This document shows, one piece after another, positions 1 to 25,960 of a stretch of 64,000 bases of DNA. The position numbers were made by a program, and so were the translations under genes. Where the stretch lies: positions 1 through 64,000 of IMG/VR virus record IMGVR_UViG_3300033146_001994. One strand, 5' to 3'. The notes beneath the pieces were generated by a model. The model was not told where the DNA came from. It searched no databases and saw only the letters and a program-made list of their open reading frames with translations. How positions within the stretch are numbered: the first letter of the stretch is position 1; every line of letters starts with the position of its first letter. Origin of the DNA: a virus.

Positions 1-4
1 TATT

Positions 5-205
5 ATGAGAAAATTTAATTTAGAAGCGAAAATAACAATTAGTGTTCATACTGTTGTTGATGCAAATTCACTTGAAGAAGCAATTAAAATTGCAGAACAA
101 AGAGATGATATTTTCCACGCAACATATCAAAATGGCAATGAAGATGAACATTGGATTATTGATGATTTTGATGGTTTACCTATGGATATTCATTTAGAAG
201 AATAA
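5..205 (+). CDS. Small hypothetical protein (66 aa)
   Basis: A 66-residue acidic protein. The first half alternates hydrophobic and charged residues as in a beta hairpin (KITISVHTVVDA), followed by a helix (SLEEAIKIAEQR) and an acidic tail with aromatic residues. This resembles small accessory proteins common in Bacteroidetes phages and mobile DNA, but I do not recognise a named family and assign no function. The ATG is almost at the window edge, so upstream context is missing. It is the first of three short ORFs separated by hairpin-rich spacers, which suggests a region of exchangeable accessory genes. The reading frame is clear; the role is unknown. Confidence 0.6.
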   Translation: MRKFNLEAKITISVHTVVDANSLEEAIKIAEQRDDIFHATYQNGNEDEHWIIDDFDGLPMDIHLEE

Positions 206-206
206 T

Positions 207-243
207 GCACCACAACGGTAAAGTGTATGGTGCGTTGCCATAC
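207..243 (+). other. Two mutually exclusive hairpins downstream of first ORF
   Basis: GCACCA at 207-212 can pair with TGGTGC at 228-233, or GTATGG at 225-230 can pair with CCATAC at 238-243. Both use the TGG at 228-230, so they cannot form together. No T-run follows, so this is not an ordinary intrinsic terminator. It could be mRNA-end processing structure or a remnant of a recombination site. Stem lengths are only 6 bp. Confidence 0.3.
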
Positions 244-280
244 AAAGAGATAATGTTCAATCTAATAAAATAAATTTGAT

Positions 281-486
281 ATGAGTGATAAAATAAAAAA
301 TACAGGACAAAGTGGCAATGACACTATACACAGTGTTATACACAGTCCTAATGAATTAGAGCCAGTTTTAGCAAAAATCGAACATATAAACGATTTGGGA
401 AAATCCGAATGGTATGAAGTAGTTTAAAAACATTTGAAGATGGTGAAAAAGTTGTAAAATGGAAATATTGTAAGGATTGTGTATAA
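281..486 (+). pseudogene. Frameshifted small ORF, two halves in different frames
   Basis: An ATG at 281 opens a 48-codon frame ending with GKSEWYEVV and a TAA at 425-427. A different frame entered at 421 continues with TFEDGEKVVKWKYCKDCV and stops at 484-486. I remember proteins from Bacteroidetes mobile DNA in which a KSEWYEVV-like segment and a TFEDG...WKYC-like segment occur in one chain, so I read this as one gene broken by a small indel near 421. No classic -1 slippery heptamer sits in the correct phase at the junction, so programmed frameshifting is less likely. Alternatively the first 48 codons are a small gene on their own. Confidence 0.45.
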
Positions 487-610
487 CGATTTGAATATGA
501 AATGTAGGCAATTTGAAACACCTACTTTCAATTACCAACAGAACTTAAATAAAAGAGATAAATTAACTAATTAATAACTTGTTGCCTATATTTTATATTT
601 GTTGTTAGGC
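481..610 (+). repeat. Long imperfect inverted repeat resembling an integron attC site
   Basis: The arm at 481-511 and the arm at 582-610 are near-perfect inverted copies: the inner 7 bp TAGGCAA / TTGCCTA match exactly, and the next 12 positions match apart from three that can form G-U pairs. The outer ends are GTATAAC (481-487) and GTTAGGC (604-610). GTTAGGC fits the attC core GTTRRRY exactly; GTATAAC differs from RYYYAAC at one base. A spacer of 70 nt makes the element about 130 bp, similar to long attC sites of the VCR type. An ORF starts 19 bases downstream at 629 and its end overlaps GCCTAAC (812-818), a perfect RYYYAAC. No integrase gene is visible. The inverted repeat is certain; its role is inference. 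Confidence 0.45.
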
Positions 611-628
611 AACGTAAATTAAAAGATA

Positions 629-817
629 ATGACAAGAAGTGAAGCATATTATCAGATGAAAACATTAGGAAATTTAGTAACTCATAAATCTTTTACGAAA
701 CACGAATTTTTAACTTGGGAACAAAATCAAATTAAAACAGAAGATGGGTATGACTTTTCGTCTCAATTTCATAATTTAAAGCAATTTGAAGATGGTTGGT
801 CGCTTTATGTTGCCTAA
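629..817 (+). CDS. Small hypothetical protein (62 aa), possible cassette gene
   Basis: A 62-residue protein with an N-terminal TRSEAYYQMKTLG helix, the centre VTHKSF...EFLTW, an EDGYDF turn and a C-terminal FEDGWSLYVA. The layout (E-A-x5-G-x-x-V near the start, D-G-W near the end) is common in small Bacteroidetes phage and plasmid proteins and faintly recalls the DUF2829 fold, which includes the Thoeris inhibitor Tad2. That likeness is only at pattern level. The stop codon lies inside GTTGCCTAAC (809-818), the reverse complement of GTTAGGCAAC at 604-613 just ahead of the gene, so the gene is bracketed by matching half-sites. Function is not assigned. Confidence 0.55.
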   Translation: MTRSEAYYQMKTLGNLVTHKSFTKHEFLTWEQNQIKTEDGYDFSSQFHNLKQFEDGWSLYVA

Positions 818-935
818 CTAGATGCTAGAAAACATATTTATTCAAAATGATAAATATGTACAATATAACTTTATATATAGAAAAACTAAAGAAACAAAAC
901 AATATTAATAAATAAACTAATTAATTAAATTTATT

Positions 936-1460
936 ATGCAGATAAATATAGTAAATAATTCAAAACTTGAATTACCCAAGTATGCCCACAATGGGGATGC
1001 AGGAATAGATTTAAAAGCTGATTTTTCAAAAGAAACTTTAAAATCATTAAAATTTACAGGACAACTTAGTGTAAATAATAATACTGATATTACAATTAAT
1101 AATGGAGAAAATCCGATACAAAGCATAGTTTTATTCCCAAATACTAGAGTATTAGTACCTACAAATTTACATGTACAATTGCCTAAAAACACACAGTTAG
1201 AAATAAGGTCAAGGTCAGGATGGGCACTAAAAGAGGGAATTACATTACTAAACTCTCCTGGGACTATTGATTCTAATTATACAGGCAGTATTGGAGCAAT
1301 ACTTATAAACTTAAGTAATTCACCTGTAACAATTAGTCAAGGCGATAGAGTTGCACAGGCTGTACTAATGCCCTACATTCCTATAGAATGGAATGAAGTA
1401 TATAATCTAAATACTACTAATAGAGGAACATCAGGATTTGGTGATTCAGGTAAAAACTAA
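936..1460 (+). CDS. dut: dUTPase (dUTP diphosphatase)
   Basis: Hydrolyses dUTP to dUMP and pyrophosphate, keeping uracil out of replicating DNA and feeding dTMP synthesis. All five motifs of the trimeric dUTPase family are visible: AGIDL near the N-terminus, RSRSGWALK, the catalytic GTIDSNYTGSI loop, QGDRVAQAVL and the C-terminal RGTSGFGDSG arm that closes over the active site. At 174 residues it is longer than the usual 140-150 because of an insert of about 20 residues between motifs 1 and 2 (NNNTDITINN region). It opens a run of nucleic-acid genes and pairs functionally with the uracil-DNA glycosylase at 16767. The start follows an A/T-rich leader. Confidence 0.95.
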   Translation: MQINIVNNSKLELPKYAHNGDAGIDLKADFSKETLKSLKFTGQLSVNNNTDITINNGENPIQSIVLFPNTRVLVPTNLHVQLPKNTQLEIRSRSGWALKEGITLLNSPGTIDSNYTGSIGAILINLSNSPVTISQGDRVAQAVLMPYIPIEWNEVYNLNTTNRGTSGFGDSGKN

Positions 1461-1474
1461 TAAATAATATAACT

Positions 1475-2164
1475 ATGAAATATATTGAGAATTTAACAGA
1501 ACAGGAAATTTTAAAGTTGACAAATACTGATATTGATAAAATGGTCAGGCTAAAGGTGGCAAAAAAAGGAATTAAGTTTCTTACTCTTCCAAAAGAGCCT
1601 GCGTACATCAAAACTACTCCACCTACAACAAAAGTATATTATTGCAATTTGTTAGGAAGAAAACTTTCCTTTACAGATAAACATGAATTAGACGATGTAA
1701 TAGATGTATTAAATTCCTGTAAAAGTAAATGTACTATTGATAGGGATTATAATTTGCCAGGAGATAATCCAGGATATTTAAAGAAGGAGCTTGAAAATGC
1801 AAATTGGAGTAGTGATACCCCTGATTCTATAAAGACAGAAATGGTATATACAAACAAAGAGTATAATATTTTCAGCAAAATTACAAGAGAAAATTCTAAA
1901 TTACAAAGTGTTTTTAAAAAAGCAATGCAGGAATATGAAGTATTTCAAAAAGAATTAGATAGTATAAAGGATGAAATATTGCAATATATAAAACCTGTTA
2001 TAGATAAGTATGCGTTGCTTGAAGAGTGTATTCACGTGTTTAAAAAAGAATATTTACCTTTAGCAGAAAATAATGAAGAAATTTCAATAGAATTTTTAGG
2101 TAAAGCATATAACTTATCAACAGAACAGAAAGATTATGTGCTAAAGAATTATAGAAAAGAATAA
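1475..2164 (+). CDS. Hypothetical protein (229 aa) between dUTPase and polymerase
   Basis: I do not recognise this protein. The N-terminal 50 residues are helical and lysine-rich, a central part has Cys-containing and Pro/Gly-rich turns (SCKSKCTIDRDYNLPGDNPGY), and the C-terminal 110 residues are strongly helical with heptad-like spacing (EYEVFQKELDSIKDEILQY), suggesting a coiled coil. No signal peptide or membrane segment. It starts 14 bases after the dUTPase stop and ends at a terminator-like hairpin, so it is probably co-transcribed with dUTPase. A replication or DNA-binding accessory role is possible from context only. Confidence 0.65.
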   Translation: MKYIENLTEQEILKLTNTDIDKMVRLKVAKKGIKFLTLPKEPAYIKTTPPTTKVYYCNLLGRKLSFTDKHELDDVIDVLNSCKSKCTIDRDYNLPGDNPGYLKKELENANWSSDTPDSIKTEMVYTNKEYNIFSKITRENSKLQSVFKKAMQEYEVFQKELDSIKDEILQYIKPVIDKYALLEECIHVFKKEYLPLAENNEEISIEFLGKAYNLSTEQKDYVLKNYRKE

Positions 2165-2210
2165 TTTTATGTATATTTATAAATTCTTTCATAATTGGTT
2201 TGTTTAGTTT

Positions 2211-2257
2211 ACAGCAAGGAGATATTTCAATAGATATTCTTCTTGCTGTTTTAATTT
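2211..2257 (+). terminator. Intrinsic terminator candidate
   Basis: ACAGCAAG at 2211-2218 pairs with CTTGCTGT at 2242-2249, and the stem can be extended inward by several pairs including a G-U. It is followed by TTTTAATTT. It lies between the 1475 gene and the small membrane gene at 2269, so it would separate the dUTPase unit from the polymerase unit. Confidence 0.6.
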
Positions 2258-2268
2258 AAATTATAAAT

Positions 2269-2481
2269 ATGGAAAATAAAATAATCAATCAAAAAGCAAT
2301 ATTATATATAGGAATGTTATTCTACTTTATTGGAATAGTGTTACTTATAATAGAATGTGATGCTTTTTCAATAGGAATATCACTTCTAGGAGCATGTTTT
2401 ATTGGAATATCTCTAAGCAACTTAAATAATTTATATAAAGCCTATGAAACAGACAGGAACAATAAGAATAGTTTCCGATAA
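2269..2481 (+). CDS. Small two-helix membrane protein (70 aa)
   Basis: A 70-residue protein with two hydrophobic stretches, roughly residues 11-30 (ILYIGMLFYFIGIVLLII) and 33-50 (AFSIGISLLGACFIGISL), and a charged C-terminal tail. It should span the inner membrane twice. Its last 38 bases overlap the start of the DNA polymerase gene in another frame, implying translational coupling. Position and topology do not identify a function. A second tiny two-helix protein lies upstream of the DnaB-like helicase at 6809. Confidence 0.55.
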   Translation: MENKIINQKAILYIGMLFYFIGIVLLIIECDAFSIGISLLGACFIGISLSNLNNLYKAYETDRNNKNSFR

Positions 2482-3668
2482 TCCAAAGTATTCTAAATTT
2501 ATACAATGGTCTAAAGAGGAAGCATTAGCATTCTTAAATACCTTAGATTCTATTGCACTAGATATTGAAACATCTGGACTAAATGCTCATAAAGATATAA
2601 TATATCTAGTGCAGTTAGGTAATGCAGATATTCAGGTAGTAATAGATGCACTTACTATTGACATAGTATTTTTTAAAAAATTACTAGAAACTAAGGAACT
2701 TGTTATACAAAATGCTCAATTTGGGTTACAATTCCTATTTAAAAAAGATATACAAGTTACTAAAATACATGATGCAATGCTTGTAGAAAGTGTGTTGTAT
2801 GGAGGATATAATAATAAGGCTGATTTAGCAAATATAACTACTTTATTAGATGCAAGTATAGCAAATAAGTACATAACTAGGAGATTTAGTTTAAATGCTC
2901 TAACAACTAAATACTGTAACATCACACTAGATAGAAATATTTACAGTATAATCACATCTATTGGAATAAACAATACAGTTATAGAATATGTAGCAGATAA
3001 CGTAAAATATATGCATGCTATAAAAGAGCAACAGCTTGCTGCTTATAAAAATCATCAAATTGTATACAAGGTAGATGGAAATTTAATTGACTTGGAAAAC
3101 AAAGTTGCTATTGTATTAGCTAAAATGCTTTTTAATGGAGTGCTTGTAGACAAAGAAAAATATAAAAACACTGTTATAGATGAAGTAAACACTGTTATTA
3201 TAGAGAGTATAAAAGAACTTGACAATAATATACTAAACGACAGTAGATTTAAAAAATGGCATGCTTATCAATTAGATTTATTTTCTACAATTAAATCCAC
3301 AGGCATAAATTGGAATAGTAACGTTGTGAAACTTGAAATTTTAAAAGAAATAGATGCTAATATTGAATCGACAGGTACACCCGTTCTAAGAAAACATGTA
3401 AAAGCTCATCCAATTATAGCAAATCTTGTATCATATAGTAAATCTAAAAAATTACAAAGCTCTTTTGGAGAAGCTTTGCTAGAGCATATAGATAGTAGTA
3501 CAGGTAGAATACATTCTAATATACAGCAGATATTGTCTACTGGAAGAATTTCTATGAGTAACCCAAATTTATTACAAATTCCTAGTAAAGGTAAACTGGG
3601 AAAGGTCATTAGAAGCTGTTTTATACCTAGAGATGGATACGATGTGGTAGGTGGCGATTATAGTAGCT
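2444..3668 (+). CDS. Family A DNA polymerase, exon 1 (3'-5' exonuclease and start of polymerase domain)
   Basis: First part of a T7/PolI-type replicative polymerase without a 5'-3' exonuclease domain. Residues about 36-200 form the proofreading exonuclease: ALDIETSGL carries the DxE metal ligands, then NAQFGLQFL and EYVADNVKY as the later motifs. From about residue 330 the polymerase domain begins (GRIHSNIQQILSTGRISMSNPNLLQIP) and runs into motif A, GGDYSS. The reading frame then hits a stop at 3677-3679. The missing FEL of motif A resumes at 4220 after a group I intron, so the exon boundary is placed after T3668, giving DYSS-FEL. Exons 1 and 2 together encode about 648 residues. The start overlaps the membrane gene upstream by 38 bases. 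Confidence 0.9.
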
Positions 3669-10575: not shown

Positions 10576-11595
10576 ATGGCATTATCTAAAAGAAATAGTA
10601 TTACAATTACTGAATTATATCAAATGATTCCTCCTGAAAGAATTTTTGAATTTTATTGCACACATTGGAAAGATGTTTCATATAAGCTAGACACATTATT
10701 TATAAGTGATACTAGAGGCGATGATAAAAGACCTAGTGCAATGATAAAAAAGTCAATAAGTAATAAGTTGTATTATATTGACTTTGGAGATGGTATTCCA
10801 CAAAGTGCTGTATATTTAGTAAGCTATCTATACTCTATTACTATTAAAGATGCTATTGATAAAATTCTTTTAGATATTCCAAACAATAATGAAAGTAATG
10901 TGTCTACTGGTATAAATATGACTAGAACATCCTCCATACACAGTCCTAGAAGTACAAATACTAGAATTAATATACAGCCTGTTAAATGGAATAAAAGTAA
11001 TTTTAATTACTGGAAACAGTACGGTTGGACAGTGGAGAATTTAGAGAAATGTAAAATTTATCAAGTTACAAAGATATGGGTAAATGGCAAAAGAATATTT
11101 TTTTATGATAAGGCATTTTGTATAACTTATTATACGCATAATAATATTATACGTCGTAAGATATATTTTCCTGAAAGAACTGATAATAGGTTTATATCAA
11201 ATGTGGATACTACAATTGTACAAGGTTGGGAAATTTTACCAAAACAAGGAGGAGATGTATTGATTATTACTAAAGCATTTAAAGATATAGGGTCATTCCT
11301 GAATATTGGAATTTATAGTTGTGCTACTAATAATGAAACATCTTTTTTCCCTGAAAATGTAATAATAAAACTTAAAAAAAGATGGAAACATATTATTGTA
11401 TGGTGGGATAATGATAGAACAGGTGTAGAAATGGGATTATATTTTGCATTAAAATATGATTTAAAATTTATCTGCAATGACTATAAATTACCTAAAGACC
11501 CATCTGATTTATTTAAAGCTTATGGTAAAGAAAAATTTAAAGAATTTGTAAATTTAAAACTAAATTTAAATGAAAATACTGGAAACAAAACATGA
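10576..11595 (+). CDS. Toprim-domain primase-like protein
   Basis: A 339-residue DnaG-type protein. The N-terminal part has a small domain with YYIDFGDGI, similar to the strand around phage CHC2-like regions but without zinc ligands. The Toprim domain lies at about residues 230-310: DVLIITKAFKDIGSFL replaces the usual ITEGxxD with Lys at the catalytic Glu position, and IIVWWDNDRTGVEMG provides DxDxxG. Many phage Toprim proteins carry such a K variant, so activity is uncertain but primase ancestry is clear. It overlaps the rIIA-like gene by 26 bases. It would make primers for the DnaB/PolA replisome. Confidence 0.72.
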   Translation: MALSKRNSITITELYQMIPPERIFEFYCTHWKDVSYKLDTLFISDTRGDDKRPSAMIKKSISNKLYYIDFGDGIPQSAVYLVSYLYSITIKDAIDKILLDIPNNNESNVSTGINMTRTSSIHSPRSTNTRINIQPVKWNKSNFNYWKQYGWTVENLEKCKIYQVTKIWVNGKRIFFYDKAFCITYYTHNNIIRRKIYFPERTDNRFISNVDTTIVQGWEILPKQGGDVLIITKAFKDIGSFLNIGIYSCATNNETSFFPENVIIKLKKRWKHIIVWWDNDRTGVEMGLYFALKYDLKFICNDYKLPKDPSDLFKAYGKEKFKEFVNLKLNLNENTGNKT

Positions 11596-13762
11596 AATAG
11601 ATGTTTTAAATGTAGAACAAGCACAAAGTAAAATAAATACAAATAAATTACAAAAAGCGTTTGAATTACTTAGTTCTATATATAAAAATCCTATTAAATC
11701 TGTCATACGTGAGTACACATCTAATGCTGTGGATGCAAATGTTGCAAACAATAGTACCAATCCTGTAGCTGTATTCTATACTAAAATTGTAGATGACTAT
11801 TATTTTAATGTACGAGACTATGGTACAGGAATGAGTAAACAGTTTATGCAGGATATTTATTTTAACTATCTTGAAACAACAAAAGAAGATTCAGATGATT
11901 TTATTGGAGGGTTTGGAATTGGAGCTAAAAGTATATTCTCATACAATGTAAATGGTGTTTTATTTGTAGAAACTATTTATAATGGAGTTAAATATGTATG
12001 GACTTATTATAAAGACGAAAATAATATTCCTAGCTATACTTTAATGTCAGAAATGCCTACTACAGAATTATCAGGCACGTTGGTAAGATTTAAAATTGAA
12101 TGTAATGACTATTCTGTATTTTTAAATACTTCTAACAACATTCTACGCTATATTGACAATATTATTTTATTAGATATAGATAAAACAAATCTGTTTGAAC
12201 ATAACGAAGTGACTGAGTTTAAATACTTTAAAACTACTTGTGATAATGATTCAAGTATTGTATTATTGCTGGGAAATATTGTATATGACGTTGACTATAA
12301 CGAGATTACAGTTAATTACAATGACAAGCATATCCAAATTGCTGTAAAATTTGGTATTGATGAGTTAACACCTAGTTATAATAGAGAAACTTTTTATTAT
12401 AATGCTTCAACTAGAAAATTCATTCAAAATAGAGTGAATGCCGCAATTAAGGAAGTATATAGCATCCAAAAAGCACAAGCAGTTATTGATATTCCAAATA
12501 TAGAACCCAACCAATTTACACACGGTATAACTTGTAAAGATAAAGTACTAGATATGCCAAATCCCATAGAACAAAATTATAAATCCTTAGTGGAAGCTGT
12601 TCCCTCATTTGTACCTACATCTAAGTTTTCTGTTTTAGTACGTTATAGAAGAGTATATACTAAAAATTATGGGTTTAAAGGAAATTATAATGGAGAGGAT
12701 AAAATCATTGTAGCAGACAGCAAGTCGTTAACACAGCGTAATAGAAAATTGTACTGTAATATAGAGTTTGCAGACAAAAACATAATATTACTAATCAAAA
12801 ACACTAATATAACACTTGATATCTATCGTCGTATATTAGGTTTATACAGAGTTCCTAAAAAAGATTGGAGGAAATTAATAATAGCCCATCAAAAGTTAGA
12901 ACAATTAGCTTTAAAAGACAGTATAGAATTTGAAACAATTAAAATAACTCCTGAATGGAAACTTGCACATAGTGAGCACTTTACAAAAAATTATACTAGT
13001 GGATTTAAGTATAAAAACTATGTGCCTGGAACAATTATAGATGTTACTACTGAATCAGAAACATCAGAATTGCAAGCATTAATTGATTTTAAAGGTATTA
13101 TAATATACGGCATGCATGATGATAAAGCTATTTTACTTGCAATAAAAAAAGTTTTAAAAAGATGGAATTACAAAAATAACATTAAAGTAATAAGTATGTC
13201 TAAAAAATATTATACACAATTAGAAAAACTAGATAATCCTAAGTTTTTGAATGTTTCTGAATTTAATGGTAAGTTTTATAAACTTTTGAGAAACATAGCA
13301 ACTGCTGAGTATTTGCATGCAACGTTAGATATTGAGAATGTATTTGAAGACAATAAAATCTTAAATATGTTTAATACATCAATTTCAAATGAAGTTTATT
13401 TATTAGAACAGTTTTTAGATAAATACCTTATAAACAGTTACTATACTACTAGAGTACCATTTAGGAAAATCTTATTAAATGCTTTTATTGAAAATAACGA
13501 TTTAAATGAGGAAATTTTAGAAAAATTTAAAAAAATAAAAAAGTATTATAAATTTTATAGTGAAGTAGTTGTATTGGCAAATAAACAGGCATACGATGTA
13601 GAGTTTTATATTGGAATTGCTGGGGCTTTAAAATATAAATTACATAAATTAATTAATAATAATAAAAAGAAAGGAGTTGCTACTGACAAAGACTTATTTA
13701 TAAATCCTATATGGTATACAAATAATAAAAAATTAATTCGTAAAAAATATAATCTAAATTAA
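11570..13762 (+). CDS. rIIA: rIIA-like GHKL ATPase
   Basis: A 730-residue protein with the Bergerat (GHKL) ATP-binding fold at the N-terminus: the N box SVIREYTSNAVDAN (Glu and Asn for Mg-ATP), the G1 box DYGTGM, the G2 box GGFGIGAKS and SGTLVRFKI. The remainder is long and alpha/beta mixed without other known domains. This matches T4 rIIA, a membrane-associated protein that lets the phage overcome RexAB-type exclusion. The next gene is rIIB-like, one base apart from its stop, so the T4 pairing is kept. Its role in a crAss-like phage is inferred from T4. Confidence 0.82.
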   Translation: MKILETKHEIDVLNVEQAQSKINTNKLQKAFELLSSIYKNPIKSVIREYTSNAVDANVANNSTNPVAVFYTKIVDDYYFNVRDYGTGMSKQFMQDIYFNYLETTKEDSDDFIGGFGIGAKSIFSYNVNGVLFVETIYNGVKYVWTYYKDENNIPSYTLMSEMPTTELSGTLVRFKIECNDYSVFLNTSNNILRYIDNIILLDIDKTNLFEHNEVTEFKYFKTTCDNDSSIVLLLGNIVYDVDYNEITVNYNDKHIQIAVKFGIDELTPSYNRETFYYNASTRKFIQNRVNAAIKEVYSIQKAQAVIDIPNIEPNQFTHGITCKDKVLDMPNPIEQNYKSLVEAVPSFVPTSKFSVLVRYRRVYTKNYGFKGNYNGEDKIIVADSKSLTQRNRKLYCNIEFADKNIILLIKNTNITLDIYRRILGLYRVPKKDWRKLIIAHQKLEQLALKDSIEFETIKITPEWKLAHSEHFTKNYTSGFKYKNYVPGTIIDVTTESETSELQALIDFKGIIIYGMHDDKAILLAIKKVLKRWNYKNNIKVISMSKKYYTQLEKLDNPKFLNVSEFNGKFYKLLRNIATAEYLHATLDIENVFEDNKILNMFNTSISNEVYLLEQFLDKYLINSYYTTRVPFRKILLNAFIENNDLNEEILEKFKKIKKYYKFYSEVVVLANKQAYDVEFYIGIAGALKYKLHKLINNNKKKGVATDKDLFINPIWYTNNKKLIRKKYNLN

Positions 13763-13763
13763 T

Positions 13764-15068
13764 ATGGAAAATAAATTTAAAAAAATAAAGGCATTATTTT
13801 TAGATAATAATATCATTATTTCTATTAATAATAACATAATCTCTCTAAAGAGTAATAACACTGAATGGGAAACATTTAAAAAAGAACTTGCAGAGTTTAA
13901 TGGTATTTTAGATTCAGATACAGACAGTTCTAGTATAGAACATAAGTTTAAATCTATCAAAGAGTTTATAATAGAAAAAAGTCAAACGGTAAATACTACA
14001 AAAGAGGGGTATTCTTTAAAGCATATTTTAAACTTATTACGAATTGAAAATTTAGAAACAGAGGAATATAAAACTCTTAAGATTGAATTTTTAGAAGCAT
14101 TAAAAAAATCAAACTATGACCATCTTTTTAAGGAGATAAATGAAAATGTGGTATTTTTATACACTACTACTATAATTCCACCTATCTTTATGAAAGCATT
14201 TATAGATGCAGAAAAGAATAATTTATATTCAAAAATATCACTTATCAACTTTTGGAAAAACCTATGTGCAAATCCTAATAAGCAGATAAGATATGATGCT
14301 TTTAAATGGATTTATACTTCTAAGTTTGCTATTACTAATTCAGGCAATCTTATTACATATAGAAATGTGGATAACGATAGGGAATACAATAAGAATATTC
14401 TTAAAATAACTGTACAAGTTTTTGAAAAGGTAATTCAACTTACTAGAAGACAAGAAGATATTTACAAGTACAATATCTATAAAAATGGGGATGAGATAAT
14501 TATAGCAAAAACCAGTGAATTTCCTATGATAGCTACTTTGCAGGAAGAGTATGACAATTTAATTTCTACAAACAACTGTTCTCTTATTCCTAGATTCCAT
14601 GCACAACATCAAGGTGCTTATGGACAGGATATAACATTAGGTATTCCCGTTACAATGCCTAGGGATAAATGCGATATGGATGCTAATTCTAGTTGTAGTA
14701 AAGGTCTACATCAAAAATCTTTGGAATATGGTTTAAATTTGGGAGACACAGTTTTAGTATGTTTAGTAAATCCATATGATATTGTAGCTATTCCTACTAA
14801 CGATTGTACTAAAATGCGTACATGTAGGTATTTACCATTTGGCATAGCAGAAAAGGATAAGGCAGGAAATATTATACCTTGGGAAGAGGGTACATATAAT
14901 TTTCCTAAGAATATTTTAAACAAATTAGAAGTTGCCATATCATTCGATAACTCTGACAGGTTTATAGACGAACTTAAAGAATACAATGTAATATCAAAAG
15001 ACCTAACTAAAGAATTTTTTAATATAAATGTAACACAAACACGTAAATATTATGATGACAGAAGTTGA
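13764..15068 (+). CDS. rIIB: rIIB-like protein
   Basis: A 434-residue protein. Its centre carries the rIIB signature: FWKNLCANPNKQIRYDAFKW, then FAITNSGNLITYRNVD and later SLIPRFHAQHQGAYGQDITLG, LGDTVLVCLVNPYDIVAIP and TCRYLPFGIAE. The N-terminal 180 residues are helical, acidic and lysine-rich. rIIA and rIIB of T4 work together to counter host exclusion. Only one base separates it from rIIA, so both are surely translated from one message. The last 17 bases overlap the nuclease gene. Confidence 0.8.
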   Translation: MENKFKKIKALFLDNNIIISINNNIISLKSNNTEWETFKKELAEFNGILDSDTDSSSIEHKFKSIKEFIIEKSQTVNTTKEGYSLKHILNLLRIENLETEEYKTLKIEFLEALKKSNYDHLFKEINENVVFLYTTTIIPPIFMKAFIDAEKNNLYSKISLINFWKNLCANPNKQIRYDAFKWIYTSKFAITNSGNLITYRNVDNDREYNKNILKITVQVFEKVIQLTRRQEDIYKYNIYKNGDEIIIAKTSEFPMIATLQEEYDNLISTNNCSLIPRFHAQHQGAYGQDITLGIPVTMPRDKCDMDANSSCSKGLHQKSLEYGLNLGDTVLVCLVNPYDIVAIPTNDCTKMRTCRYLPFGIAEKDKAGNIIPWEEGTYNFPKNILNKLEVAISFDNSDRFIDELKEYNVISKDLTKEFFNINVTQTRKYYDDRS

Positions 15069-21994: not shown

Positions 21995-22533
21995 ATTTAC
22001 TTGACTATGTAGATGACGATATAAAAATTTCACCTGAACTTTTAGTTTTACTGCCTTTTAAGAAATTATGGGAAAGTAATAAAAGTAAAAGTAAAGCTGC
22101 TAAAGAGATTGCATATATATACTTCATGGTAAATAAAACTAATGAACTAGGATTCTGGCAAGAAGCAGATGCAACTGTTAGGCATAAGGAAATAAAAACC
22201 TTTATTTTTGGTAAAGATAGTAAATGGACTGCTTCTAAAGAGGTAATTGAAGCTAAACATTTCTATAGGAATCAAATCACACCTTTTGCTACAGGGCTCT
22301 TAGAAGATGCTATTAAGGCTGCTAATAGCATTAGAGAATATCTACGTGATGTTGACTGGAATTTAAAAGATAAATCTGATAAATTCACTTACGATGTAAA
22401 TAAAGTCAAAGAGTTATTGTTAAAACTGCCTGATATAGATAAAGCTATTACAGAGTTAAGAAATAGAGTTAAACAGGAAGAAAGTAATGATGCAGATAAA
22501 CGTGGTAATAAAAAGATAGGAATGTATGAATAA
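21991..22533 (+). CDS. Possible small terminase subunit
   Basis: A 180-residue helical protein immediately upstream of, and overlapping by 8 bases, the large terminase gene. KSKSKAAKEIAYIYFMVNK and the helical C-terminus with KDKSDKFTYDVNKVKELLLKL fit a small oligomeric DNA-recognition subunit, but no sequence motif proves it. Position is the main argument. An alternative is a conserved crAss-like packaging accessory. Confidence 0.5.
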   Translation: MNLLDYVDDDIKISPELLVLLPFKKLWESNKSKSKAAKEIAYIYFMVNKTNELGFWQEADATVRHKEIKTFIFGKDSKWTASKEVIEAKHFYRNQITPFATGLLEDAIKAANSIREYLRDVDWNLKDKSDKFTYDVNKVKELLLKLPDIDKAITELRNRVKQEESNDADKRGNKKIGMYE

Positions 22534-25500
22534 CTTTAATTCTGTACAAACACAGATTACTACAGAGCTTTTAGAAGAACTTCCTAAAGATGTTGTAGAT
22601 TCTTTAAATGACCATCTTGAAAATATTGAATTCATACGTAATTTAATAAATCCTAATAGAAAATTTGCAAAAGATTTAGATAGAGATGAAGAGGGTAAAA
22701 TCTTAGTAAATATAACAAATCCTCACATACTAGAAGATACTGACTATTTTAGACCTCTTGCTATAGAATTTGAAATGAATGGCAAATACACTAGTATATT
22801 TCCTAATCCTGCAAGAACTTCTGAATATAGAAAGTTTTGGGATGAACAAAGAGATAGATGTATAAATGGTTATGTTAGAGAATCAGATGGAGAGTGGATT
22901 CCTGGAAGTTTTTACTTCTATTTAAACTTTTGTAGAATACCTGTTGCAGTTGCAAAAACTACTAAACAAAAACCATCTAAAAAAAATAAGAGAAGTAAAG
23001 CAGGCAAAACAGTTGAAGCTGATAGAGTATTAAAACATCCTGATTTTTGGGATGGGGATTATTTATATTATCATTATTTAGACCAAGCTAAAAAAGCAGG
23101 TAAACATGCTAATGTGTTAAAAACTAGAGGTAGAGGATTTTCTTTTAAAGGCGGTGAAATGTTAGCTGAGGGCTATTTCTTTTATGATAATAGTAATAAC
23201 TATGCTGTCGCAGCACATGAAAACTTCTTAACAAATGATGGGCTTTTAACTAAAGCTTGGGATATTATAGATGATATAAATATAAATACCCCTTTTACTA
23301 AAACAGCATTGCCTAAATCACCAATGAAAAGAGTAGCTTCTTATGTAGATGCTAATGGAAATATTAGAGGTACTAAATCTGCTGTTATTGGCATATCTTT
23401 AAAGAATGATATTGAAAAACATCGAGGAAAAAGAGGAAGGATAATGCTATTTGAAGAATCAGGTGTTTTTCCTAAATTAAACACAGCATGGGATATTGCT
23501 AGAAACTCCTTTGAACAGGATGACTTAGTATTTGGATTAATGATATCTTTTGGTTGTGTATGCAAAGGTACTAAAGTATATACTAATAAAGGTGAATATA
23601 TTAACATCGAAGATTTACAACAGCCTGATGGTATAGTAGGGTTTGGAGAAAATAATATTTCTAAAGAGCCTATAGTGTATATGCAGCCTCCAGCTAAAAA
23701 AGAATGTGTTAGAATAACTACTTCATATAGAACTTTGGAATGTAGTATAGACCATCCAATTTTAATAAGAACAACTGGAACACATAGAAAAGGATTTGAT
23801 AAAGTTGAAACATACTTTTCTAAAAAAACAAGTAAATTTATTACATGTAAAACTAAATCTAAAGTAACATACCATAAAAAAGTATGGAGAGATGCAGAAA
23901 AACTTAAAGAGGGTGATTATTTATTAACAGCGGATATTATTGATATATGGGGAACTGATAAATTATTTGATGCTAGACTTGTTGGGATGCTTATAGGGGA
24001 TGGTTCATATGGTATGAGAAAACATTATACTAGAATGGAATTTAAAACGCCTGTTTTTTCTAATTGTGATGACGAATTAAATAAATATGTCTATACTAAA
24101 TATGACGCTGTAACTGAAAGTTCATATATTACTAAATTAGGAAAACATTATAAAGAAACTAGGATTAGAAAATTAATTCCTATTTTAAAAGAAGTGGGAA
24201 TAGCAGGGCAATCTAAAACGCAAAAAAGACTGCCTAGTAATTATATGTACCTAACTAAAAAAGATTCACAAGAGTTACTAGCTGGTCTATTTGATACTGA
24301 TGGCAGTATAATGTTAGATGTAAACAATAGAGCTTCTATTACAATAAGCCAATGTAATATAGAAATTATAAAGCAAATAAAAACCTTGTTAGAAAAATTT
24401 GGTATAGTAGGGTTTATAACTACAGTAAAGCCGTCTTTAAAAGAGGGTAGAAAAGATAGAAACTTACACTACAGATTAATTATTACAACAAAACAAAGTA
24501 TAAGGAATTTTAAAAAATATATTCCTATAATAATTAAATATAAAATAGCAAAACTGGATAAAATTTTAAATTCTAAAGAGTTTTCGACAGATTGTAGAAA
24601 ATATGACATATTTAAAGGTATTAGGGAAGAAAGAGTAACTAAGGTAGAATATATAGGGAAAAAAGATATTTATAATCTAACAGCAGGAAACACACACACA
24701 TATTTAGCTAACAATATAATTACACATAATACGGGAGGAACTAAGGGCAATAGATTTGAAAGTGCTAAAGAGTTCATATACAACCCTGTAGGATATGGTA
24801 TACTGCCTTTGAAAAATGTATTTGATAAATCAACTGGTAGTGGAATGTGTAGCTTTTGGTCAGGTATTTATCTAAACACCGCAGGTGCATATGATAAAAA
24901 TGGTAATTCTGATGTAGTAAAAGCATTAATAAGGATTCTATATAAAAGGTGGGAAGAAGTACAAAGTGGAATTAAAGCAGATACTATCTTGCAAAGAAAA
25001 GCTGAGAATGCTATTACCCCACAAGAAGCAATATTAAGTACAAGTGAAAACATATTTCCTGTACAGGATTTAAAAGATAGATTAGCAGAAATTAAAACTA
25101 ACCTAGGTGCATTTATATCAAAGCATTATATAGGCTTGATGGGAGTAAAAGATGGAGAAGTGGTATTTAACCAAAAACCTGAATTAACCCCTATTAGGAA
25201 TTATCCTGTTGATATAGATTCAGATAGAACAGGTGCAATTGAAGTATTTAAAATGCCTGCAAAGGGAACTAAAGAACTGTCTATTGGAGAAAGGTATGTA
25301 ATAAGTGTCGACCCTGTAAGATATGATAAAGTGTTATATAGTGTCTCACTTGCTTCTATATTTGTATTTGATTTATGGCTAGATGAAATTGTGGCTGAAT
25401 ATACATGTAGACCTGAATCTATTGAAGATTTTAATACTCAACTATATAGATTAGCCATTTGGTACAATGCTGAAATTAACTATGAAAACGATATTACAGA

Positions 25501-25960
25501 TATATTTACATTTTTTAGAAATAAAAATGCACTTTATTATATAACAGATACTCCTGAAATGATTAAATCTTTAGAAATAGCTAAAGAGGGTAGAGGTAAT
25601 AGACAAAAAGGAACTCCATCAAGTGTTAAATTAAATAATCAAGCTAGACTTTGGTTAACCCAATGGTTAAAATCTCCTGTCAAAAGTGATACTGAGGATA
25701 ATGTAACATTGAATTTACACAAAGTACCTAGCATAGGATTATTAGAGGAATTAATTGCGTGGAATATTGATGGAAACTTCGATAGAATTTCTTCAATGGG
25801 AATACTTATGGTTAGTAGAAAAGATAAATTATTGTACTTAGAAAGTAATATGACACAGGAAGTGGCTGAATATGAAGAAGATGAATTTTTCAATGATGAC
25901 TTAAGTATTACTAACCAAAATGAGAAAAGTATGAAAAATTTTGATTTAAAATTTTTATAA
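22526..25960 (+). CDS. terL: Large terminase subunit (TerL), precursor with intein
   Basis: ATPase-nuclease motor that packages DNA. The precursor is 1,144 residues; removal of a 392-residue intein leaves about 752. The ATPase has a deviant P-loop at about residues 199-210 (TRGRGFSFKGGE, no GKS), the adenine-contact region AVAAHENFL, Walker B RIMLFEES, and motif III SFG-TGG, which is split by the intein. The C-terminal nuclease begins at YVISVDPVRYD (metal Asp) and continues through YNAEINYEND. crAss-like TerL proteins commonly have this long form. The protein must be spliced to function. Confidence 0.92.
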   Translation: MNNFNSVQTQITTELLEELPKDVVDSLNDHLENIEFIRNLINPNRKFAKDLDRDEEGKILVNITNPHILEDTDYFRPLAIEFEMNGKYTSIFPNPARTSEYRKFWDEQRDRCINGYVRESDGEWIPGSFYFYLNFCRIPVAVAKTTKQKPSKKNKRSKAGKTVEADRVLKHPDFWDGDYLYYHYLDQAKKAGKHANVLKTRGRGFSFKGGEMLAEGYFFYDNSNNYAVAAHENFLTNDGLLTKAWDIIDDININTPFTKTALPKSPMKRVASYVDANGNIRGTKSAVIGISLKNDIEKHRGKRGRIMLFEESGVFPKLNTAWDIARNSFEQDDLVFGLMISFGCVCKGTKVYTNKGEYINIEDLQQPDGIVGFGENNISKEPIVYMQPPAKKECVRITTSYRTLECSIDHPILIRTTGTHRKGFDKVETYFSKKTSKFITCKTKSKVTYHKKVWRDAEKLKEGDYLLTADIIDIWGTDKLFDARLVGMLIGDGSYGMRKHYTRMEFKTPVFSNCDDELNKYVYTKYDAVTESSYITKLGKHYKETRIRKLIPILKEVGIAGQSKTQKRLPSNYMYLTKKDSQELLAGLFDTDGSIMLDVNNRASITISQCNIEIIKQIKTLLEKFGIVGFITTVKPSLKEGRKDRNLHYRLIITTKQSIRNFKKYIPIIIKYKIAKLDKILNSKEFSTDCRKYDIFKGIREERVTKVEYIGKKDIYNLTAGNTHTYLANNIITHNTGGTKGNRFESAKEFIYNPVGYGILPLKNVFDKSTGSGMCSFWSGIYLNTAGAYDKNGNSDVVKALIRILYKRWEEVQSGIKADTILQRKAENAITPQEAILSTSENIFPVQDLKDRLAEIKTNLGAFISKHYIGLMGVKDGEVVFNQKPELTPIRNYPVDIDSDRTGAIEVFKMPAKGTKELSIGERYVISVDPVRYDKVLYSVSLASIFVFDLWLDEIVAEYTCRPESIEDFNTQLYRLAIWYNAEINYENDITDIFTFFRNKNALYYITDTPEMIKSLEIAKEGRGNRQKGTPSSVKLNNQARLWLTQWLKSPVKSDTEDNVTLNLHKVPSIGLLEELIAWNIDGNFDRISSMGILMVSRKDKLLYLESNMTQEVAEYEEDEFFNDDLSITNQNEKSMKNFDLKFL
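23555..24730 (+). mobile_element. LAGLIDADG intein in TerL
   Basis: In-frame insertion of 392 codons. Block A is CVCKGTKVYTNKGE with nucleophile Cys1; block B is ECSIDHPILIRT (His). The two LAGLIDADG motifs are LVGMLIGDGS and LLAGLFDTDGS. Block F/G is KDIYNLTAGNTHTYLANN then IITHN, with penultimate His and final Asn, followed by Thr as the first C-extein residue. Splicing joins SFG to TGG, restoring the terminase motif. Both acidic residues of the endonuclease motifs are present, so it may still home. Host for spread is presumably other phages with the same SFGTGG site. Confidence 0.95.

Follow-up and report, generated by a model that had tools for sequence, protein, structure and literature searches.

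The window analysed here, the first 64,000 nucleotides of the IMG/VR virus record IMGVR_UViG_3300033146_001994, begins with a row of small open reading frames (ORFs) and attC-like sites that lies to the left of a dUTPase gene (Table 1). The complete record is 87,547 bp long, and because its last 63 bases are identical to its first 63 we take it as circular. The start of the window is an artificial break in this circular record, and the larger part of the array to which the first 818 positions belong lies outside the window; an earlier note on this DNA, made from the letters alone, had missed both points. We consider it very likely that positions 1–818 are the end of a ~7-kb integron-like cassette array that spans the record ends, and that the cassette recognised in the earlier note is real.

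Table 1. Features at the right end of the predicted cassette array and its right flank. R1 is the covariance model described in the text.
Feature	Positions	Strand	Observations
Right end of cassette array	1..818	+	Continues left past the record end to ~81,203; 63-bp terminal repeat; R1 sites at 81,203-87,471 and 207-613
66-aa ORF	5..205	+	Stop codon ends 9 nt before AAC
attC-like site	207..344	+	R'' AAC 214-216; crossover G335|T336; R1 101 bits, E 8.1e-18 (training sequence); AAC-GTT 121 nt
Cassette with broken ORF, attC included	336..604	+	5' TTATACACAGTC pairs with own 3' GATTGTGTATAA, 11.6/12
48-aa ORF, phrog_23756-like, frame broken near its end	281..427	+	phrog_23756, E 2.4e-10
attC-like site of the initial finding	479..613	+	R'' AAC 485-487; stem ~21 bp; crossover G604|T605; AAC-GTT 119 nt; R1 109.9 bits, E 1.3e-19 (training sequence)
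Last cassette, without the remainder of its attC	605..818	+	TTAGGCAACGTA at 605 pairs with TATGTTGCCTAA before 818, 11.6/12
62-aa ORF, phage family phrog_3474	629..817	+	E 1.4e-13; stop codon overlaps R''
R'' GCCTAAC, right end of array	812..818	+	Seen in sequence; no R1 site from 613 to 81,203 except a hit at E 0.63
dUTPase, right flanking phage gene	936..1460	+	PF00692, E 5.8e-23; phrog_135, E 1e-46

The earlier note had described one integron gene cassette bracketed by an inverted repeat at 481–610 and a GCCTAAC motif. The motifs lie where they were claimed (GTATAAC at 481–487, GTTAGGC at 604–610 and GCCTAAC at 812–818) and the inverted repeat is present, with arms at 494–511 and 582–599 that are 89% complementary. 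Folded as DNA, the single 481–610 element is weakly above chance (z = -1.72; 9 of 200 shuffles were equally good), and an Rfam search gave no match. A single fold proves little, and the case for the element therefore rests on the recurrence of such sites. The kind of element had been named correctly; the idea of a single cassette had to be given up, the ORF unit being the last of a long array. The 479–613 site, whose R box GTTAGGC fits the GTTRRRY motif, belongs to the preceding cassette, which has its 5' end at 335|336. Further left, the cassette of the 66-aa ORF runs from record position 87,463 to the R'' AAC at 214–216, its 5' end TTGTGGTGCGTT pairing with its own 3' end AATGCACCACAA. The first 55 bases of the broken 281–427 ORF fall inside the preceding attC, and a second frame, open over the last part, stops at the TAA of GTATAAC.

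The assignment to the crAss-like phages (Crassvirales) holds on the similarity of the predicted capsid protein, the matches of the terminase and portal being to PHROGs that bear these names. Matches to the capsid protein occur in 114 phage records. Those listed, 20 in number, are 33–36% identical and mostly crAss-like, with Cellulophaga phages also among them, and identity to crAss-like records reaches 36%. Terminase, portal and capsid each match PHROGs so named (terminase and portal: 6681 and 6547). Capsid relatives at 70 and 73% identity sit on ~7-kb contigs only, and blastn of positions 1–3000 against phage records gave no match.

Two other observations concern the remainder of the window. 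The terminase large subunit ORF (22526–25960) is 1144 aa long, the best stretch of its TerL PHROG match covers residues 734–1125, and the sequence near 24,290 encodes LAGLFDTDGS, which we take to be a LAGLIDADG endonuclease motif; an intein with such an endonuclease is therefore likely in this ORF. Two neighbouring ORFs at 11570–15068 match the rIIA and rIIB PHROGs.

A covariance model of the attC-like sites

We built a covariance model, R1, from eight attC-like sites of the record, with 20 assigned pairs. Over the whole record R1 identified 11 sites at E <= 0.00102, all on the + strand and running from 81,203 through the joined ends to 613. Eight of these are the training sequences, and the other three have E values of 6.1e-8, 1.9e-6 and 1.6e-5. 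A twelfth match (80,014–80,085, E 0.63) we take to be noise. The final site ends at 613, in agreement with the earlier observation that no complete second attC follows position 818. Seven complete sites in the array score 87–110 bits. Several sites are incomplete, with the R'' half only, and part of the array may therefore be dead.

Pairing in the R1 alignment shows covariation. Of the cells, 85.3% are paired, compared with 74.7% after shuffling (0 of 500 shuffles), and 21 cells carry changes on both sides, compared with 9.9 +/- 2.2 (0 of 500). Two of the five covariation measures were not above shuffles: pairs changed on both sides (9 versus 7.3; 107 of 500) and further pair types (67 of 500). 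Alignments slid out of register all pair less (34.7–53.2%).

The distance from AAC to GTT is 119–121 nt in seven of the nine phage sites measured, the remaining two having 110 and 52 nt. The R boxes share a shorter motif than that of the integron: GTTR fits 10 of 10 phage sites and 159 of 166 bacterial sites (the latter described below), whereas GTTRRRY fits 3 of the 10 phage sites with GTT (11 given) and 11 of the 166 bacterial ones (169 given). Of 9 phage sites, 8 have a 5' spacer that exceeds the 3' one in length, as do all 136 bacterial sites whose stem scores at least 9 (of the 169 given, 30 without a recognised core and three with weaker stems were left out); R1 itself selects for this shape. 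More generally, having been trained on the phage array, R1 prefers particular lengths and spacers and so favours sites shaped like those of that array. The array holds at least two attC-like sites in the same orientation with ORFs between them and has no intI nearby, the arrangement by which a CALIN (a cluster of attC sites without integrase) is recognised. It works like integron cassettes yet fails the defining GTTRRRY motif, and we file it neither as a canonical integron nor as a CALIN.

Simpler patterns were also searched. A first descriptor scan also matched control stretches no longer than 7,480 bases (1–7 matches on the + strand and 1–10 on the - strand) and gave 10 matches on the - strand of the array. 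The exact 3' arm pattern was absent from IMG/VR, and the exact 5' arm pattern occurred in 91 stretches of GTDB contigs and 13 of IMG/VR. R1 had no match on the 93 of these 104 stretches that were scored (80 from GTDB and 13 from IMG/VR), and the contexts of the exact patterns, as far as viewed, looked like chance matches.

Cassette ends match within units

In integrons, the half-site beyond G|TT goes with the following cassette. The 5' end of a cassette should therefore match its own 3' end better than that of an array partner. We took cassettes between consecutive R1 sites, chosen blind to complementarity, leaving out sites without a recognised AAC or AAT and GTT (3 of 11 phage and 30 of 169 bacterial), neighbour pairs lacking a core (two phage and 23 bacterial) and 20 bacterial pairs of more than 2,500 or fewer than 40 bases. 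The eight phage cassettes pair their own ends at a mean of 11.1 of 12 positions, compared with 8.12 when the 3' ends of the array are shuffled among its cassettes (3 of 20,000 permutations). Eighty bacterial cassettes from 22 loci behave likewise (9.66 versus 7.33; 0 of 20,000). With the six core positions left out, own ends still match better, both in the phage (5.35 versus 3.85; 5 of 20,000) and in the 72 bacterial cassettes from loci with two or more (4.41 versus 3.02; 0 of 20,000). By comparison, pairing is lower between the two R boxes within a single linear phage site (mean 7.4 of 12), as expected if the half after G|TT moves with the next cassette.

The earlier note had placed the recombination breakpoint between G604 and T605. 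Our searches found no close relatives with this array in which recombination could be seen by comparison, nor any phage related closely enough for the 605–818 cassette to be seen gained or lost, and the breakpoint was therefore tested through the matching of cassette ends. It fits: a cassette cut at G604|T605 begins with TTAGGCAACGTA and ends with TATGTTGCCTAA, which pair at 11.6 of 12 positions. Stop codons lie at most 11 nt from R'' in 10 of the 10 cassettes measured, namely those with a clear ORF and a partner end. Judged from the matching of each unit's two ends, exchange of the cassettes as circles is well supported.

Phage-type genes as cassette cargo

At least three phage-type genes lie inside cassettes with matching ends: the ORFs at 281–427 and 629–817 and a YopX gene. 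Domains recognised in the array region are YopX (PF09643, 5.3e-19), KilA-N (PF04383, 1.2e-18), a relative of crAss001_48 (PF21825, 1.3e-15) and phrog_35036 (3.6e-15); many other ORFs of the region have no clear match. The phrog_3474 ORF at 629–817 is matched by 103 phage records in tblastn, all below 60% identity and, for the 20 listed, at 46.7–49.2%. In IMG/VR, tblastn confirmed no relatives of this 62-aa ORF or of the PolA ORF.

Sites of the same type in other phages

R1 was run on 39 whole records of viruses, located for the most part by way of a flanking gene, and three of them have matches at E <= 0.01: G414 (168.6 kb, seven sites), G415 (88 kb, two sites) and G411 (145.9 kb, one weak site). 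All three were found from whole records, R1 having no match over 51 viral loci. G414 and G415 are 99.98% identical over 16 kb and therefore represent one lineage. Two adjacent cassettes of G414 have the ends TTGTGGTGCGTT and TTATGTGGCGTT, as in the crAss-like phage, and one G414 site is 81% identical over 128 nt to a site of the crAss-like phage. The ORFs of the crAss-like array had no match at 1e-3 in the fetched part of the G414 array, the cargo of which includes an MT-A70 methylase (1.6e-28). Over 40 aa, an ORF at the left edge of the crAss-like array shares 62% identity with a gene next to a second cluster in G414. In the Polaribacter phage P12002L, which carries a published phage CALIN, R1 found nothing at E <= 1.

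The second attC-like cluster of G414 lies at G414:C1:57131-58101 (L244 7132-8101), after the gene whose last 40 aa give the 62% match. Both phage arrays also contain short sites (52–56 nt from AAC to GTT) among the ~120-nt ones, at L004 5854-5926 and at L243 6086-6142 and 9872-9926.

Sites of the same type in Bacteroidota

R1 matched at E <= 0.1 in four of the first ten genomes with named loci, the best matches being in Algoriphagus winogradskyi (G002, 1.2e-5) and Mangrovibacterium lignilyticum (G004, 3e-4). At E <= 1e-4 it matched in at least 47 of 395 genomes of the phylum of A. winogradskyi, a lower bound since eight candidates were scored per genome. No match was obtained in 50 genomes that came from loci whose titles do not name Bacteroidota, with up to 66 candidates scored; these controls were picked via chance 5'-arm-pattern loci, and a few are titled just 'bacterium'. 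Likewise, 70 loci not titled Bacteroidota contained no linked self-complementary units in 517,170 bases, searched on one strand.

Among 40 fetched array loci, 39 hold a total of 109 R1 sites at E <= 0.05 (L281 has none), against one R1 site in twenty control loci from the same genomes. None of the 46 loci that hold the 169 bacterial sites has sites on both strands. Such arrays can be long, as in G236, where locus L232 has 15 sites in 20 kb. Nine of the 22 genomes searched for 16S rRNA yielded it, M. lignilyticum among them; of the other eight sequences, seven are 79.8–83.8% identical to that of M. lignilyticum, and that of G399 is 75% identical. The phage array sites are of a type found in Bacteroidota.

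The G236 array (G236:C1:2140000-2190000; L231 and L232) has sites of ~120–124 nt, no IntI at 1e-60, and an XerA-like gene 13.6 kb past its 3' end.

A candidate recombinase

By the usual account, cassette exchange depends on IntI, whose special insertion reads the folded single-stranded attC. The part of PMC8138268 covered here describes this insertion as essential for integron function and its conservation as incomplete. As the earlier note had said, the crAss-like record encodes no integrase that we could find: PF00589 (E <= 1), TIGR02249 (1e-3) and an alignment of XerA-like recombinases (1e-8) all had no match.

G414 carries a 267-aa tyrosine recombinase directly 3' of its array (L243 12131-12934). 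It scores 169.5 bits with NF040815 (cut-off 220) and 152.6 bits with the IntI model TIGR02249, and its best PDB match is 4a8e (XerC-like, 123.2 bits), followed by 2a3v (IntI4, 94.9 bits). We aligned this protein with six relatives (alignment A2); the two A2 recombinases scored with TIGR02249 reach 152.6 and 189.3 bits, under the cut-off of 265. The ~37-residue IntI insertion before the second catalytic arginine is absent from all seven A2 proteins and present in two aligned IntI proteins of the phylum.

The A2 family is found at E <= 1e-75 in 112 of the 395 genomes, with six candidates scored per genome. It matches below this threshold in 31 of the 47 R1-positive genomes and in 81 of the 348 others (Fisher 1e-8), an association that can reflect shared ancestry. 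IntI above its curated cut-off shows no such enrichment (8 of 47 versus 97 of 348; Fisher p 0.16, odds ratio <1).

Gene position adds to this. Merging R1 sites less than 60 kb apart gave 70 array clusters, and an XerA-like gene lies within 50 kb of 14 of them, where ~1.6 would be expected from density; for the other 56 there is none within 50 kb on the contig, some contigs being short. All 14 linked genes lie 3' of their array (binomial 1.2e-4), whichever strand they are on. Five of them (in G056, G064, G121, G144 and G294) are part of the A2 query, having been picked for nearness and not for side, and the nine outside the query are all 3' too. A raw count by locus is weaker (a recombinase in 6 of 40 array loci versus 1 of 20 control loci). 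One genome holds both enzymes: on contig G015:C1 (L226) an IntI gene on the other strand occupies the canonical position 5' of the array, at 6.4 kb from an R1 site, and an XerA-like gene lies 14 kb 3' of another R1 site. Genome content and position thus make an XerA-like recombinase the likely mover of the cassettes and our first choice, with IntI second.

How the array may work, and alternative readings

We assign a probability of about 0.8 to the reading that positions 1–818 are the right end of an integron-like cassette array whose units are exchanged as circles by an enzyme acting in trans, likely XerA-like. In a typical unit, a small ORF on the + strand would come first and then an attC-like site, as a rule ~120 nt long, that can form a hairpin. 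Units would be gained or exchanged as circles through recombination between the G and the TT of the R box, as the matching of ends suggests. Because no recombinase of its own was found in the phage, the enzyme would come from the host or a co-infecting element; genome content and gene position point to an XerA-like tyrosine recombinase, of the kind found 3' of some such arrays, rather than a canonical IntI. The array would then be the phage's store of exchangeable accessory genes.

Alternatively, the array could be an ordinary CALIN, its cassettes moved in trans by a canonical IntI of the host, with the nearby XerA-like gene incidental. Such an enzyme is available in the phylum (IntI exceeds the curated cut-off in 105 of 395 genomes), in G015 it lies 5' of an R1 array, and in the part of PMC9892861 covered here IntI1 used five of six tested phage attCs, which are of another type. 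However, R1 arrays occur without enrichment in IntI genomes (p 0.16, as above), and R boxes departing from GTTRRRY make up 7 of 10 in the phage and 155 of 166 in the bacteria. We regard this reading as plausible but somewhat doubtful.

We think it unlikely that the array is a relic that entered the phage once, by illegitimate recombination with a host chromosome, and has since ceased to exchange units. The record without a detectable recombinase, the several half sites and the broken 281–427 ORF would all suit a decaying array. Against this, seven complete sites still score 87 to 110 bits, cassettes match well at their own ends, a second phage has the same site type with other ORFs, and several of the genes come from phage families.

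A reading of the repeats as RNA hairpins belonging to phage genes, for example terminators, with a chance resemblance to attC, is very improbable: the single element does fold only slightly better than shuffles, the descriptor scan does match controls and the - strand of the array, and two of five covariation measures do not exceed shuffles, but own ends match outside the hairpin, AAC and GTT are 119–121 nt apart in seven of nine sites, Bacteroidota arrays have the same structure, and Rfam has no match.

A broader proposal, which we hold tentatively and at a little short of even odds, is that these arrays represent a second kind of cassette exchange beside the IntI integron. It would use hairpin sites of ~120 nt, with an R box made of GTTR and a cassette-specific remainder, and XerA-like enzymes lacking the IntI insertion and encoded 3' of the array. 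Spread through Bacteroidota, it would move between bacteria and phages, crAss-like phages included, some phages carrying the enzyme (as in G414) and others borrowing it (as in the crAss-like phage). If this is true, the same cassette logic can run with another R box and a recombinase without the IntI insertion, and there is more than one way to build the mechanism. Phages of Bacteroidota, crAss-like ones among them, could then swap accessory genes singly. Such arrays would also lie in a phylum for whose complete genomes the part of PMC9024848 (IntegronFinder 2.0) covered here records hardly any complete integrons.

Comparison with known systems

As far as the sources were covered, Bacteroidota (or the Bacteroidetes/Chlorobi group) are named among integron-bearing groups in PMC8618304, PMC9668308 and PMC2426708, and the 11 taxon models of PMC8352920 include none for Bacteroidota. 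As a separate observation, the 105 of 395 genomes with IntI above cut-off are more than the scarcity in complete Bacteroidetes genomes reported in the covered part of PMC9024848 suggests. Our literature search had partial coverage, without preprints; among the titles and abstracts of the matches listed, neither such arrays with an XerA-like gene nor an integron array in a crAss-like phage was described. Integrase-less attC clusters in phages are already known, and it is the combination seen here that we did not find in the literature searched.

The closest of these known clusters are the CALINs of virulent phages described by Qi et al. (2023; PMC9892861), who, in the part covered here, report 17 CALINs in phages and use by IntI1 of five of six tested attCs. 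Those arrays resemble ours in combining attC sites with small ORFs without an integrase and in carrying DNA methyltransferase cargo (here the MT-A70 gene of G414). They differ in that our array has 11 modelled sites, lies in a crAss-like phage and has another site type, R1 finding none in P12002L at E <= 1.

With sedentary chromosomal integrons that encode IntI, the arrays share the cassette layout, a single orientation, a crossover at G|TT, R''/R' pairing and large size. In contrast to such integrons, their R boxes are mostly off GTTRRRY, an XerA-like gene lies 3' of 14 of 70 clusters, and among the R1 sites listed G015 is the only case with IntI within 50 kb on the same contig. The candidate enzyme itself resembles the simple XerA/Xer tyrosine recombinases (NF040815; PDB 4a8e and 5hxy), as the 169.5-bit score of the G414 protein with NF040815 and its best PDB match to 4a8e indicate. 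Unlike them, it falls below the curated cut-off and adjoins an attC-like array, and the distribution of its family, in 112 of 395 genomes, is not that of a housekeeping gene.
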